This document shows, piece after piece, positions 27,401 to 33,990 of a stretch of 64,000 nt of DNA. This stretch comes from Acholeplasma granularum ATCC 19168 (GTDB lineage Bacteria > Bacillota_I > Bacilli_A > Acholeplasmatales > Acholeplasmataceae): contig NZ_JAFR01000013.1 of the NCBI RefSeq assembly GCF_000526235.1, positions 1 to 64,000 of the forward strand, read 5' to 3'. A model generated the notes under the pieces. It made no database searches and was not told the origin of the DNA. It saw nothing but the letters and a program-made list of their open reading frames with translations. How positions within the stretch are numbered: position 1 is the stretch's first letter; each line of letters opens with the position of its first letter. The position numbers were made by a program, and so were the translations under genes.

Positions 27401-28345
27401 ATGAAAAAAATATTATCAGTTTTAACAGTATTTATACTAGCAGCTTTATTAGTAGCATGTGGACCATCAGATAATACATTTAATAGTGATGCAAACATTA
27501 AAGTTTACACACGTGATACCACATCAGGTACAAGAGATGCATTCTTTACAGGTATTAATTTTAAAGATGCAGTGTCATCTAATGAAAAATTAGTTACAGG
27601 ATTTGTTGAAGTTGATGGTAATGGTACCATGAGATCAGGTGTTGCAGGTGATGAATTTGGTATTGGTTATGTATCATTAAACTCACTAAATGATACAGTT
27701 AAACCACTTAAGTTTAATAACATCGTTGCAACAGAGGCAAATGTAAATAATAATACGTATGAATTGAAACGTCCATTTATGTTTGTTACTAGATATGCTT
27801 TATCTGAAACTGATCCGGTAGATGATACAGAAGCATTAGTTAGAGCATTCGTAGCATTTTCATCAACTCAAGAAGGTAAAGCCGCGATTCAAGGTAAAGG
27901 CGGAATTCTTGAAGTATTAGCATCAGATAAAAGTTGGGATGAGATTAAAGCAAATCATCCGGTAACTGCTAAAAATAATTCAAGCATCACAATTCGTTTT
28001 GGTGGATCTACATCAGTTGAAAGTGTTGCTAAAGCATTAACAGCAGCATTTACACCACTAGCAGGAAACTTTGTTGCTGTGCATGAACACACAGGTTCAG
28101 GTGATGCTGTTAAACGTACTTGGGGATCTGAAAAAGATGCAGCAAATAGTTTACATGTAGGATTTGCATCTAGAGATTTCAACCAAGGTGAAAAAGACTT
28201 ATTTGGTAATGCAAGTAATGGCAGATTAAACTGGGATGCGGTTGTACCAGTTGTACATCCATCAAACCCTATCGAAAATATTACAGCAGAATTATTAACA
28301 AGTATCTATAATGGTACATTTAAAAAATGGTCTGAGGTAAAATAA
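27401..28345 (+). CDS. pstS: Phosphate-binding lipoprotein PstS with swapped halves
   Basis: A 314-aa lipoprotein with lipobox LVAC (C20). It is the phosphate receptor of the Pst system by context and motifs. The order of the motifs is unusual. Canonical PstS begins with a GSTSV/TGSG half and continues with the SGTRDAF/GIGYVSL half. Here SGTRDAF (42-48), GIGYVSL (87-93) and the FVAF...EGK helix come first (about 33-190). The GSTSV (202-206), TGSG (231-234), ASRDF and NPI...IYNGTFKKW segment comes second (195-314). This is a circular permutation at the canonical N/C-termini. AAGGAG precedes the ATG. Confidence 0.9.
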   Translation: MKKILSVLTVFILAALLVACGPSDNTFNSDANIKVYTRDTTSGTRDAFFTGINFKDAVSSNEKLVTGFVEVDGNGTMRSGVAGDEFGIGYVSLNSLNDTVKPLKFNNIVATEANVNNNTYELKRPFMFVTRYALSETDPVDDTEALVRAFVAFSSTQEGKAAIQGKGGILEVLASDKSWDEIKANHPVTAKNNSSITIRFGGSTSVESVAKALTAAFTPLAGNFVAVHEHTGSGDAVKRTWGSEKDAANSLHVGFASRDFNQGEKDLFGNASNGRLNWDAVVPVVHPSNPIENITAELLTSIYNGTFKKWSEVK

Positions 28346-28385: not shown

Positions 28386-29366
28386 ATGCAAATCAATCGA
28401 AAAAAGAATATAGTGAGTCGAAAGAAAGTAACGGAATATATTGTAAAATTTCTCTTACTGCTTGCGACACTTATATCAGCATCAGCCATCATTTTAATTG
28501 TATATCAACTAGCGGACCGTGGCATACGGCCGCTTTTTAGCGCTTATACAATTGAAAGTTATGATGGTAGTTTATATGAAAATGTTAGATTAAATATTAG
28601 GTACTTTTTTACAGGTACAGAATATATTGGTTATATTAAAGATTTTGGTAATGGCAAAATGGAAGCAGCTTATGGTATTGGCTACTTAATTATTAACACG
28701 ATCTTTAATGTGACACTAAGTTTATTACTTGCTGCACCAATCAGTATTTTAACTGCAGTATTTATTGTAAAACTTTCTCCTTCTAAAATCGGACAAACTC
28801 TACAAATAGTAGTAGAAATGTTGGCAGCTGTACCATCTGTTGTTATTGGTATGTTTGGTCAAGGATTAATCTCACAAGCAATTAAAGTTGTAACACCAAT
28901 TACTGGTAACTTCTCACTACTTAATACGATTATTGTATTAACAATTATGATTGTTCCAACAATTACAACAATGGCTATTACAGCACTAAGAGCGATTCCA
29001 AGAAATATTGAAGAAGGTTCGCTTGCACTTGGTGCAACACCGACACAGACGATATTTAAGGTTGTTTTACCTGCTGCAAAAAGTGGGATTTTTGCAGGGA
29101 TAATTCTTGCTATTGGTCGTGCACTTGGTGAAGCATCAGCTGTATCACTTGTTGCAGGTGGATCTGGTTCTGGTCCAAACTTTGATCTGTTTGGTAGAAC
29201 TAATACACTATCTTCAAGAATACTATTAGGATTTAAAGAAGTATCTGAAGGTGCGATGGATTTTGAAATTCGTTTTACTATGGGACTTGTATTAATTGCA
29301 ATCATATTATTCTTTAACATCGTTTTAAATATGATAAAGAAGAAGGTGGCAAACTATGAACTCTAG
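28386..29366 (+). CDS. pstC: Phosphate ABC transporter permease PstC
   Basis: A 326-aa inner-membrane permease with six helices. The cytoplasmic EAA loop is ALRAIPRNIEEGSLALGATPTQTIFKVVLP, preceded by VPSVVIGMFG. About 55 residues of non-hydrophobic sequence (45-100) separate helix 1 from helix 2 and would face outside. It pairs with PstA to form the phosphate pore. It overlaps pstA by 11 nt. An AAGAGGT site precedes the ATG. Confidence 0.93.
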   Translation: MQINRKKNIVSRKKVTEYIVKFLLLLATLISASAIILIVYQLADRGIRPLFSAYTIESYDGSLYENVRLNIRYFFTGTEYIGYIKDFGNGKMEAAYGIGYLIINTIFNVTLSLLLAAPISILTAVFIVKLSPSKIGQTLQIVVEMLAAVPSVVIGMFGQGLISQAIKVVTPITGNFSLLNTIIVLTIMIVPTITTMAITALRAIPRNIEEGSLALGATPTQTIFKVVLPAAKSGIFAGIILAIGRALGEASAVSLVAGGSGSGPNFDLFGRTNTLSSRILLGFKEVSEGAMDFEIRFTMGLVLIAIILFFNIVLNMIKKKVANYEL

Positions 29367-30609
29367 TCAAAAAATAAAGGATTATGCTATCCGTATCATT
29401 ACATATGTCACATCATTTATATCTGTATTTGTTTTAGGAGCGATTCTAATCTTTGTTTTAGTTCAAGGGGCACCACTTCTTAATTTAGATATTATAATGG
29501 GAGATAACTATAATACTTATAAGCCTGGTATGAAACTAGAATATGTTCCTATAGAAAGTAGTTTTACATATGATACTAAACAGGGTGAGTATTTTAGCAC
29601 TAGATATGGTGTAGCAGTAAAAGATGATAAAACATTAGAAGGTAATCCGATTATTCGATTTACATATGTTGATCCTAATTCTCCTATGAGAAGAGGTCAT
29701 ACAATAGGTGATAGTACAGAAAAAATAGTTAGTATTGAAGTAGGCGATGTTGTTATGTCTGGAATACTTTTTTGGGGAGATAATTATTTAGACATTAATG
29801 GTGATATTAACCCTAATGCAGCATCGATTCCTTACCAAGTAACAGAAGGTGCCGAAAGTTTTGTTGAAAAACTAGATAGAACGCTTTATGTTGCAAGTAT
29901 TGCACCTGTAATATTAGGTGGTGGAATTAGAGGTTCTATTGTTACAACACTTTACTTAATTTTATTAACGTTATTAATCGCATTACCTGTTGGTGTTGCA
30001 ACAGCACTCTATATTCATGAACTTGCACCTCAAAATAAATTTACAGACCTTTTAAGATCATTAATTGATATGTTAACAGGTGTACCAAGTATTATTTACG
30101 GATTAATGGGAGCAGCTTTCTTTATTCCACTTGCTCAAAGGATGTTTAGTGGACAAATCATTAGTGGTAGTTTAATTTCTGGAGCGATGACTTTATCAGT
30201 AATTGTATTACCGGTTATTATTCGTTCAACAGAATCAGCACTAGATGTTGTACCTAAAGATTATAAGTTAGCTTCATTAGCACTTGGTGCGAATGAAACT
30301 CAAACAATCTTTAAAGTGATGTTACCAAATGCACTACCTGGTATATTATCAGCATCACTGCTAGCTATTGGCCGTATTATGGGTGAATCAGCAGCGCTTA
30401 TATTTGCAATAGGTACAGTAATTATGGATGATATTTCAATATTTGGACAAGGTACATCACTAGCTGTGCATATTTGGTCAACAATGTCGAGTGAAAATCC
30501 TAACTTTGCACTTGCATCAACAATTTCAATTGTTTTACTAGCAGTAGTTTTAACACTTAATTTACTAATCAAATTTATTACACATAAATTTGTAAAAAGA
30601 TATAGATAA
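29356..30609 (+). CDS. pstA: Phosphate ABC transporter permease PstA with large external insert
   Basis: A 417-aa permease, longer than the usual roughly 280-300 aa. Helix 1 lies at about 12-36. Then about 155 hydrophilic residues, predicted extracytoplasmic, precede the conserved core that starts [14 protein letters not shown]. The core has [10 protein letters not shown] and the EAA loop [26 protein letters not shown]. The insert has no family that I recognise and could contact the permuted PstS (inference). It overlaps pstC by 11 nt and is followed by pstB after 11 nt. Confidence 0.92.
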
Positions 30610-30620
30610 GGAGCAAATAT

Positions 30621-31376
30621 ATGTCTGTAGCATTCTCAGTTAAAAATTTAAATTTCTATTATAATGATAGACATGCATTAAAAGATGTAACCATGGATAT
30701 AAATCGTGCAGAAATTACAGCATTCATCGGACCTTCAGGATGTGGTAAATCTACATTTTTACGTACATTAAATCGTATGAACGATTTAATATTGGGTACA
30801 CGCGTGGATGGTAATATAGAATTTGATGGTCTAAATATCTATGATAAAAAATTTGATGTCATTGATTTAAGAAGTAAAGTAGGAATGGTATTTCAAAAAC
30901 CAAATCCATTTCCTATGAGTATTTATGATAACATTGCATATGGACCACGTGCACATGGTATTAAAGATAAAAAGACACTAGACTTTATAGTTGAAGACTC
31001 ACTAAAAAAGGCAGCACTTTGGGATGAGGTATCAGATAATCTAAAAAAGAGTGCACTAGCATTATCCGGTGGACAACAACAAAGATTATGTATTGCTAGA
31101 ACACTTGCTTTAAAACCGGAAGTTATTTTAATGGATGAACCAACATCAGCACTTGACCCGATTGCAACTCTAAAAATTGAAGAATTGGTTTTAGAACTTA
31201 AAAAAGAGTATACTATTATTATAGTTACTCATAATATGCAACAAGCAGCAAGAATCTCAGATAAAACTGCATTCTTTTATTTGGGCGAATTAATTGAGTT
31301 TGGAAATACTGAAAAACTATTTACGAATCCTTTAAAAAAGCAAACAGAGGATTATATAACCGGAAAATTTGGTTAA
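30621..31376 (+). CDS. pstB: Phosphate ABC transporter ATPase PstB
   Basis: A 251-aa ABC ATPase. It has Walker [10 protein letters not shown], the PstB-typical [16 protein letters not shown], signature [13 protein letters not shown], Walker [13 protein letters not shown] and the switch His in [10 protein letters not shown]. It energises phosphate uptake through PstCA. AAGGAG precedes the ATG, and phoU follows after 20 nt. Confidence 0.97.
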
Positions 31377-31396: not shown

Positions 31397-32062
31397 ATGT
31401 CTGCATTACGTGCATCACTATTAAAAGCAATTGAAGAATTAAAATCTGAAGTTGTTACAATGGCAGATCTTGTCTTAAACAACATCAATGAAGCATTCTT
31501 AGCATTTAAAACAAATAACCTCATAAAAGCTGAAGCCTTAATGAAAGCTGATGATGTGGTTGACCAATATGAAGAAGATATATCAAAATCTGCACTCCGT
31601 GTCATGTGGAAAGAGCAACCCTATGCCCAAGACTTAAGAGTTGTAACAGGGATATTAAAACTTGTAACAGACTTAGAGCGTATTGGAGATCATGCTGCCG
31701 ATATTGCTGAACAAACAATCCATATTGGAGATTTAAAAAACCAAAGATTATTACCAATTACAACCATGATGAGTGAAGCTGCTTATCAAATGGTTCTAAA
31801 CGCTATTAATGCGTTTGTGAAACAAAATTTAGAACTTGCTAAAAAAGTTATTTCTGATGATGATGTTGTTGACCAATTATTTAATGATGTTATGAAATCA
31901 GTAACAGATCAAATTAAAAATGAAACCATTGATTCACAATACGCCGTATCAGTTATTATGGTTGCTAAATACATGGAACGTGTTGCGGACCATGCAGTAA
32001 ACTTAGCTGAATGGACAATATTTATGATTACTGGGGAACATAAATCTACCCCATTATTCTAA
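31397..32062 (+). CDS. phoU: Phosphate-signalling protein PhoU
   Basis: A 221-aa helical protein with two PhoU repeats. Each contains the E/DxxxD metal-binding pattern: DLERIGDHAADIAE in the first, KYMERVADHAVNLAEW in the second. PhoU links the Pst transporter to the PhoR kinase and keeps the Pho response off when phosphate is plentiful. It lies between pstB and the response-regulator gene in one operon. Confidence 0.95.
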   Translation: MSALRASLLKAIEELKSEVVTMADLVLNNINEAFLAFKTNNLIKAEALMKADDVVDQYEEDISKSALRVMWKEQPYAQDLRVVTGILKLVTDLERIGDHAADIAEQTIHIGDLKNQRLLPITTMMSEAAYQMVLNAINAFVKQNLELAKKVISDDDVVDQLFNDVMKSVTDQIKNETIDSQYAVSVIMVAKYMERVADHAVNLAEWTIFMITGEHKSTPLF

Positions 32063-32074
32063 AAGGAGTATTAA

Positions 32075-32725
32075 ATGTTAATATATTTTTTAGAAGATGA
32101 CATGCAAATTTCATATATCATTGAAAAAACAATTACAAACGCTGGTTATCAACAAAAAGGCTTTTTAAATGCTAAAGATTTTCTTGAAGCATTAAGAAAA
32201 AAAACACCAGATCTTGTTTTATTAGATGTGATGTTACCTGATATGTCGGGTTTAGATGTTATAAAGAGTGTAAGAGAGTTTTATAAAGATTTACCAATTA
32301 TTATGCTTAGTGCATTAGGTAGCGAAATGGATAAGGTTAAAGCACTAGACTTAGGTGCAGATGATTATATGACTAAACCATTTGGTATTTTAGAATTAAC
32401 ATCTAGAATCAATGCACAGTTAAGACGTTATAATTCTAAAATAGAACTAGTAAAAGGTAATTTAGTCATTAATAAAGAAACATATAAATGTTTTATTAAT
32501 GAAAAAGAAGTAAGCCTTACAACCAAAGAATTTGAAATACTTTATCTTTTAATGAAAAACGATGAAAAAGTTGTAACAAAAGAAACACTATTTAATGAAG
32601 TATGGCAAATGGACGTTTCTATAGAAACTAGAACATTAGACATGCACATTAAATCATTAAGAGAAAAAATAAAAGATGCAAACTTTGAAATTAAAACAGT
32701 TCGTGGTGTAGGCTATAGTCTATAA
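32075..32725 (+). CDS. phoP: OmpR/PhoB-family response regulator (PhoP)
   Basis: A 216-aa response regulator. The receiver domain (1-115) has acidic residues EDD near the N-terminus, the phospho-acceptor Asp in LLDVMLPD and the Lys in TKPFG. The winged-helix effector (about 125-216) ends with TRTLDMHIKSLREKI...IKTVRGVGYSL. It is followed by a PhoR-type kinase after 14 nt and preceded by phoU. It most likely binds the 11-bp-spaced repeats at 27301-27339. It could equally be named phoB. Confidence 0.92.
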   Translation: MLIYFLEDDMQISYIIEKTITNAGYQQKGFLNAKDFLEALRKKTPDLVLLDVMLPDMSGLDVIKSVREFYKDLPIIMLSALGSEMDKVKALDLGADDYMTKPFGILELTSRINAQLRRYNSKIELVKGNLVINKETYKCFINEKEVSLTTKEFEILYLLMKNDEKVVTKETLFNEVWQMDVSIETRTLDMHIKSLREKIKDANFEIKTVRGVGYSL

Positions 32726-32739
32726 AGTCAAAGAGGGTA

Positions 32740-33990
32740 ATGATGAACTTAAATCAAAAGATATTTATAAGGTTAGGCACATATGTAGGAGTTATCTTAA
32801 CATTATTTTTTATTGTGTACCAAATCAAATATCCCAACATTGAAAACTTATATATCTACCTTATCTTTTTAGCCATTGGTGCAGGTTTAGTTTTAGCTTT
32901 ATTCTTAGAATATAAAGAGTATTTTTCAAGATATGATATTAATCAAAAAGTCGTTGATAGCGACTTTTTGGTTAAAGAGCTTGATAGAGTGAATCAAGAA
33001 CTAAAAGATAAAGATAATCAATTACTCATGATGTCTAGTTTTGCAGGTCAAGGTATTATTCTTATAAATAACCATAAAGAAATTATGTATGCCAATGAAC
33101 TTGCTAGAAAAAGATTATCTTTATTAGATACACAAAGTAAGTCCTATATTAACCAAATTAGACACACGAAAATAAAAGATCAAATTAATCGTACATTTAT
33201 GGATGTAGTACCTTATAAAGATACACATATGATTCAAAATAAAAACCTAGAAATAAAAACGATACCTACAGAACAAAGTAAAGATCAATTTATATTAGTT
33301 ATCATTGATGATTTAACAGAAAAACTACAACTTCAAACAATAAAGAAAGATTTCTTTAGTTATGCAGGGCATGAATTAAAAACACCCATTACGATCTTAA
33401 GAGGTTATGCTGAACTTATTCATCAAGAAATTATTACAGGAAAAGAAGCCACAGAAATATCTGCTAAAATGATTGATTTAGCAGATTATATGAAAGGCTT
33501 TGTTGATGATATGTTAATGTTAAGCCGTTTAGAAACATTTACTGATGGACCACTAGAAACATTAAAATTAAAAGATATAATATTAAATACGATTGAATAC
33601 TTTAATAATGCTATAAAAGAAAAACAAATAAAACTAGAACTTGATTTAGATGATATTTTATTTGAAGCAGATCCTATGGATATGCAAAAACTATTTAAAA
33701 ACATGTTAGAAAATGCAATTAAATACAATAAAGAAAATGGTTTAATCAATATATCTATTAAAAAAGTATTAAACCAAATTGTTTTTACAATATCAGATAC
33801 AGGTTTAGGTATACCATTTAGTGAACAAGACCGTATCTTTGAAAGATTTTATAGAGTAAATGATAAACGTAAAACACCAGGTACTGGACTAGGTCTTGCA
33901 ATCGTAAAACATATTGTTAATAAGTATCATGGACATATTAGCGTTGAATCTGTTGAAAATGAGTATACTAAATTTATAATTGTTATATAA
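32740..33990 (+). CDS. phoR: PhoR-type sensor histidine kinase
   Basis: A 416-aa kinase. Two N-terminal membrane helices (about 10-26 and 33-54) have almost no external loop, so phosphate is probably sensed through Pst-PhoU rather than by an outside domain. A PAS-like segment spans about 90-195. The H-box is SYAGHELKTPI (His about 212), followed by N-box NMLENAIKYN, DTGLGIP and a G2 box GTGLGLAIVKH. It phosphorylates the adjacent response regulator. Confidence 0.92.
   Translation: MMNLNQKIFIRLGTYVGVILTLFFIVYQIKYPNIENLYIYLIFLAIGAGLVLALFLEYKEYFSRYDINQKVVDSDFLVKELDRVNQELKDKDNQLLMMSSFAGQGIILINNHKEIMYANELARKRLSLLDTQSKSYINQIRHTKIKDQINRTFMDVVPYKDTHMIQNKNLEIKTIPTEQSKDQFILVIIDDLTEKLQLQTIKKDFFSYAGHELKTPITILRGYAELIHQEIITGKEATEISAKMIDLADYMKGFVDDMLMLSRLETFTDGPLETLKLKDIILNTIEYFNNAIKEKQIKLELDLDDILFEADPMDMQKLFKNMLENAIKYNKENGLINISIKKVLNQIVFTISDTGLGIPFSEQDRIFERFYRVNDKRKTPGTGLGLAIVKHIVNKYHGHISVESVENEYTKFIIVI

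Follow-up and report, generated by a model that had tools for sequence, protein, structure and literature searches.

Introduction

A natural circular permutation is described for Tp0684 (MglB-2) of Treponema pallidum, the lipid-anchored binding protein of an ABC importer (PMC4990184). For the DNA methyltransferases, a model of permutation by duplication with intermediates has been established (PMC3320104). In S. pneumoniae, the growth defect of phoU2 is relieved upon deletion of any one of the genes for Pst2 components, and phosphate uptake of the pst1 pst2 double mutant is down by about half (PMC4913102). The structure of S. pneumoniae PstS2 (SP_2084) has been in the PDB since 2012 as 4h1x. 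No papers calling 4h1x or PstS2 permuted were found; those for 4H1X or SP_2084 name only the gene. A search made mainly among openly available papers likewise gave none that connects PstS in substance, or phosphate ABC transporters, with circular permutation.

The window analyzed here is a stretch of 64,000 nucleotides from Acholeplasma granularum ATCC 19168 (contig NZ_JAFR01000013.1). An earlier note on this DNA had proposed that its PstS is circularly permuted. The observation that the two halves of the protein stand in reversed order is confirmed. There is little doubt in our judgment that the gene encodes a circularly permuted phosphate-binding lipoprotein of a normal PstSCAB importer, in a family that most likely arose via permutation by duplication.

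Sequence and Profile Matches

The pstS gene is located at positions 27401-28345 of the window, on the + strand like all features of the window given below, and codes for 314 amino acid residues followed by the stop. Its assignment is based on profiles, the translation, an AF2 model and a Foldseek search. The chain begins with a signal peptide (27401-27460) containing the lipobox LVAC and the lipidated cysteine C20, which is invariant in 75 homologues. The canonical second half, or C-half (residues 29-172, 27485-27916), is placed first, and the canonical first half, or N-half (residues 194-314, 27980-28342), is placed second. Both were delimited by the profile matches given below and by a half-profile scan. 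A new linker (residues 173-193, 27917-27979) joins the two, connecting the canonical C-terminus with the canonical N-terminus. This linker is seen as a gap between the half-profiles, which in most permuted homologues is 25-27 residues long.

The phosphate-site motifs are all present, and their residues are invariant across the 75 homologues: R38 and S42-G43-T44-R45 in the TRDTTSGTR region (residues 38-45, 27512-27535), G202, S203 and S205 in GSTS (residues 202-205, 28004-28015), and G232, S233 and D235 in TGSGD (residues 231-235, 28091-28105). The TRDTTSGTR region is taken by us to be part of the phosphate site on the basis of PstS structures. In the translation each motif named in the earlier note is found where the note places it, namely SGTRDAF (42-48), GIGYVSL (87-93), QEGK (156-159), GSTSV (202-206), TGSG (231-234), ASRDF (256-260) and IYNGTFKKW (302-310), with the stop after residue 314. 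The protein is a single-copy PstS with the C-half before the N-half; the note had likewise stated that the length is that of one protein and not of a duplication. In a profile search of the genome, PF12849 matched the window pstS only. The motifs, the operon and the pneumococcal homologue suggest that the protein binds phosphate.

The profiles of canonical PstS match the protein in swapped pieces. In TIGR02136 (E 1.8e-31 in two stretches), residues 29-164 correspond to profile positions 160-288. In PF12849, residues 190-312 correspond to positions 4-125 (66 bits, above the cut-off of the profile), while positions 127-263 are matched by an upstream piece of the same gene. The canonical structure 4q8r is matched in the same manner, residues 196-313 of the query aligning with 4-113 of the chain and residues 29-131 with 116-213. 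Thus both halves match PstS profiles, and the first half does not belong to a different family. Only one PDB chain, 4h1x, gives a colinear end-to-end match (residues 30-314 to 8-265).

TIGR02136 is matched by all 75 proteins of the structure alignment. The whole-protein score of the window PstS is 109 bits, below the cut-off of 206.6, and the protein lacks the N-then-C order of the profile. Inventories of phosphate uptake may undercount permuted PstS, because the score falls below the curated cut-off and the annotation can be generic.

Predicted Structure

The AF2 model was computed from an alignment of 75 sequences, the window protein and 74 homologues, and has a pLDDT of 94.6 and a pTM of 0.86. 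The model obtained from the single sequence was unusable (pLDDT 33). The PDB was searched with the 75-sequence model by Foldseek, which aligns in chain order. One strong match was found, 4h1x, with an E-value of 8e-24 and a TM-score of 0.85 by target length and 0.71 by query length. Every other match among the matches listed has a TM-score below 0.5; PstS-like chains of canonical order begin only at rank 44, with 9l8j (0.31/0.37). The structure prediction proposed as a check by the earlier note therefore does not give the canonical topology: with the order kept, 4h1x is recovered and canonical PstS drops away. Foldseek and sequence agree that, compared with canonical PstS, the fold is permuted, its topology being that of 4h1x; the permuted order is thus not unique to the window protein.

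The genetics of Pst2 in S. pneumoniae therefore indicates that a permuted PstS works in a cell, and the window protein would be expected to work likewise. It would follow from the chain order that the lipid anchor is attached at another face of the protein.

Distribution of the Permuted Order

Homologues with the same order, for which the earlier note suggested a search, were found in many organisms and families. The C-half then N-half (C-N) order is present in records from Acholeplasma laidlawii, A. oculi, Peloplasma, Paracholeplasma vituli, Izemoplasma, Haloplasmataceae and Erysipelotrichaceae, as well as in many families of the window's class. The half-profile scan of 80 loci in sequence records gave 79 C-N and one triple. 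The C-N PstS was also found on plasmids of Monoglobus pectinilyticus (Clostridia) and Treponema saccharophilum (Spirochaetes), both recorded as complete, where it heads pst operons. The window protein is a member of a widespread group of permuted PstS already represented in the PDB.

Some further observations were made on these loci. The two plasmid proteins (L233 4465-5280; L234 4908-5777) belong to complete pst operons but are annotated only as 'substrate-binding domain-containing protein', which agrees with the failure of the family-model cut-off on swapped halves. In CP017948.1, recorded as one chromosome, there are two pst loci (L103 and L159) with equal match scores, about 99 kb apart, which may be a real duplication or one of the assembly. 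One genome with the usual permuted PstS has, in addition, a pst-like operon with a second permuted binding protein that is very divergent (27% identity; L046 4485-5441); in this operon the PstA match is inside a 759-residue ORF, perhaps a permease fusion.

Tandem and Re-cut Forms

The arrangement of the halves was surveyed by a scan with one profile for each half and by a search of 160 genomes from the taxonomic order of the window; the counts are our own. For INTERMEDIATES and re-permutation, the 160 genomes gave about 57 C-N, seven C-N-C-N, three N-C, one c2-N-c1 and four broken or truncated forms. Since so many genomes share the full-length C-N order and the fold prediction is confident, chance is excluded as its source. 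Broken or partial copies were seen in G037 (a broken copy in a genome 67% complete) and in G069, G039 and G128 (partial copies only, at or near contig ends). Almost all of the PstS topologies found are at the head of pst operons.

Duplicated intermediates, which the earlier note also proposed to look for, do exist. The seven C-N-C-N proteins (G010, G011, G015, G024, G093, G104 and G129) are each encoded in one ORF, that of G024 with a frame break, and one C-N-C-N-C-N protein of 910 residues was found in another family of the class (L072, same contig as L160). The inner N-C unit of the tandems is canonical, as TIGR02136 matches it in one piece (e.g., profile 25-291 in G010). On the tree, the copies inside one tandem gene are each other's closest kin, and the C-N-C-N label makes four changes; therefore tandems arose repeatedly or were repeatedly lost.

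The frame break of the G024 gene (L039 4920-6729) is near its start and could be a sequencing error or decay. In the tandem copies (L033-L038, L072) the C-halves are 84-99% alike and the N-halves 75-93%, which may reflect gene conversion or a different constraint. Adjacent separate pstS genes also occur within one operon, both as a permuted pair (L066 4496-6514) and as canonical pairs (L092 3749-5549, L243 2717-4549), and could represent a pre-fusion state. A 611-residue frame in G529 was considered as a fusion and rejected, since it consists of two adjacent canonical pstS genes.

The c2-N-c1 form was found in one genome only, G023. Past the lipobox the chain continues with the final part of the C-half, followed by the linker, the N-half and the initial part of the C-half, ending in RPFMFVTRY. 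The gene (L043) is compact: it has a Shine-Dalgarno sequence and a single full set of parts in a frame of 315 residues; it lies inside a 239-kb contig, and pstC starts about a dozen bases past its stop. No remnant of a second PstS copy was seen at this gene. The protein is the sister of the window PstS on the tree (100/99; 60% identity). Its cut corresponds approximately to window residues 132-140, a loop between the strand 123-130 and the helix 142-154. In the window gene this surface loop (about residues 133-140) is at 27797-27820, and the confidence of the model is lower here (block mean 82).

Operon and Permeases

The operon of the window is intact, with pstS first: pstS-pstC-pstA-pstB-phoU, followed by a response regulator and a sensor kinase. 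The permease genes pstC (28386-29366; TIGR02138, 208 bits) and pstA (29356-30609; TIGR00974, 214 bits) both score above their cut-offs. The ATPase gene pstB (30621-31376) was assigned by ABC_tran and operon position, and phoU (31397-32062) by a PhoU match in two stretches (147 bits). The genes of the two-component system, the response regulator (32075-32725), whose homologue recurs near the pst genes of relatives, and the sensor histidine kinase (32740-33990), were assigned from their ORF sequences.

The earlier note had mentioned unusual external inserts of the partner permeases along with the permutation. The insert itself was found in PstA (417 residues), where a long extracytoplasmic segment lies near the N-terminus; a coupling to the permutation was not. 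The PstA ORF has 387-445 residues in nearly all permuted operons of the main clade, but 275-289 in most permuted operons of the 4h1x type (L073, L074, L077, L233, L234). It has 398-414 residues in the N-C revertants described below and 419 with the c2-N-c1 form, while in canonical operons the length is mostly 277-297. The insert is a trait of the main permuted clade, independent of PstS topology, and was rejected as a cause or partner of the permutation. It comprises roughly 130 residues (approximately 29461-29871) and has no Pfam match beyond the permease domain.

Origin of the Permuted Order

In this arrangement the chain starts in the canonical middle, at the loop just before the TRDxxSGTR strand, runs to the canonical C-terminus, passes through the new linker to the canonical N-terminus and returns to the loop of its start. 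It keeps the Venus-flytrap fold with its two lobes and the motifs of the phosphate site (GSTS, TGSG, SRD and TRDxxSGTR); the chain ends are moved, and with them the lipid anchor would be moved as well. Fusion of tandem genes would produce C-N-C-N, in which the inner N-C unit is canonical and every rotation is contained. Trimming at both ends could then give C-N again, c2-N-c1, or N-C, in which the linker would remain as a tail at the C-terminus. The analysis shows the permuted order and how widely it occurs, as well as the tandems and the nested position of the re-permuted forms; the mutational steps may have followed one another in the order given here.

It is possible, if doubtful, that the permuted order arose more than once, the PstS2 of the S. 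pneumoniae type and the PstS of the Acholeplasma type having been cut independently in the same tolerant loop. The free tree places canonical L056 and L095 beside the 4h1x-type group, weakly (90/73); the linkers differ in length (15-19 against mostly 25-27 residues), and 4h1x is equally close to canonical L092 and permuted L074 (45-50% per half). However, the constraint to a single origin is compatible with the data (p 0.33), the likelihood is better for a single origin when long branches are left out (p 0.65), and the cut is in the same loop.

The first permutation could also have come about by fission of the gene and re-fusion of its halves instead of tandem duplication and trimming. This we consider improbable. 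In its favor, the genomes searched (the window's class) yielded no fused canonical N-C-N-C, only the adjacent separate canonical genes of L092 and L243. Yet separate intact genes for the two halves were not seen in any pst operon, and on the tree tandem fusions recur at least four times in this family. As N-C-N-C was not among the forms found, it is by analogy with the later events that duplication would be the probable route of the first permutation.

Return to the Canonical Order

The N-C order of three proteins (G130, G145, G148) is that of canonical PstS, and they might accordingly be ancestral or acquired from outside; this is very unlikely. When the PstS halves are put in common register, the tree nests these proteins in the permuted clade beside C-N-C-N proteins (100/94), and a tree forced to group them with true canonical PstS is worse by 193 log units (AU p 7e-93). 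Each of their halves is 59-66% identical to permuted kin versus 32-36% to canonical PstS. They end in a tail of 26-27 residues that aligns with the permuted linker, while true canonical PstS mostly has 3-5 residues there. The alignment score of tail and linker is 76 against a shuffle maximum of 47 for L040, 62 against 48 for L041, and 46 against 48 for L042, the last not significant alone. The gap between their N-half and C-half, 8-13 residues, fits the junction of tandem copies (8-12 residues) and not the usual 5. The long PstA insert of the permuted clade is also kept. The nested position indicates that the N-C order was re-derived inside the permuted clade. The reversal concerns a single clade; of its three genomes, two are 64-77% complete. 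Another candidate, G114/L235, was rejected because it is a canonical binding protein that is unrelated and not part of a pst operon.

An artefact of assembly, or a chimera made from two protein families, can practically be dismissed as the source of the swapped order, for nothing was found in favor of either and the order is repeated in isolates of A. laidlawii, A. oculi, Paracholeplasma vituli and Peloplasma, in the crystallized pneumococcal protein and on the two plasmids recorded as complete, with both halves PstS and one confident model.

The tandems, the re-cut form and the N-C forms fit permutation by duplication with repeated re-cutting. We think it likely that the PstS of Acholeplasmatales and their kin represents a living permutation cycle of repeated tandem fusion and re-cutting at different loops, with at least three single-copy rotations (C-N, c2-N-c1, and N-C regained with a scar of the linker), in which the place in the pst operon is kept. 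If this is true, neither the chain ends nor the lobe that bears the anchor is constrained. The anchored end would have been moved and then moved back, which offers a test of whether the topology of binding proteins is adapted to lipid anchoring. The case for permutation by duplication usually relies on end products, while PstS shows tandems, alternative cuts and a return in one gene family. The steps share an operon position and a bacterial order, so that each can be expressed and assayed.

Comparison with Known Systems

The canonical PstS structures 4q8r and 4gd5 and the families TIGR02136 and PF12849 share with the window PstS the two halves, the phosphate-site motifs and the operon. They differ in having the halves in the opposite order with no linker, and they match the window protein in two pieces. 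S. pneumoniae PstS2 (4h1x) has the same chain order, cut loop, colinear sequence and fold topology and also heads a pst operon, but it is distant (about 22% in the structural alignment) and its linker is shorter. Relatives of the 4h1x type, unlike the window operon, mostly have a short PstA without insert.

Tp0684 (MglB-2) resembles the window PstS in its natural permutation, its lipid anchor and its ABC importer. However, it binds sugar and is another type of binding protein, and the passages of its description consulted report no tandem or re-permuted forms (PMC4990184). The permutations of DNA methyltransferases are similar in their route via functional tandem or partly duplicated intermediates (PMC3320104). 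In PstS, unlike in the methyltransferases, the intermediates, the re-cut forms and the return to the original order are found in one bacterial order and at one operon position. The permuted topology itself is already in the PDB; the intermediates, the re-cutting and the reversal in PstS appear to be new.
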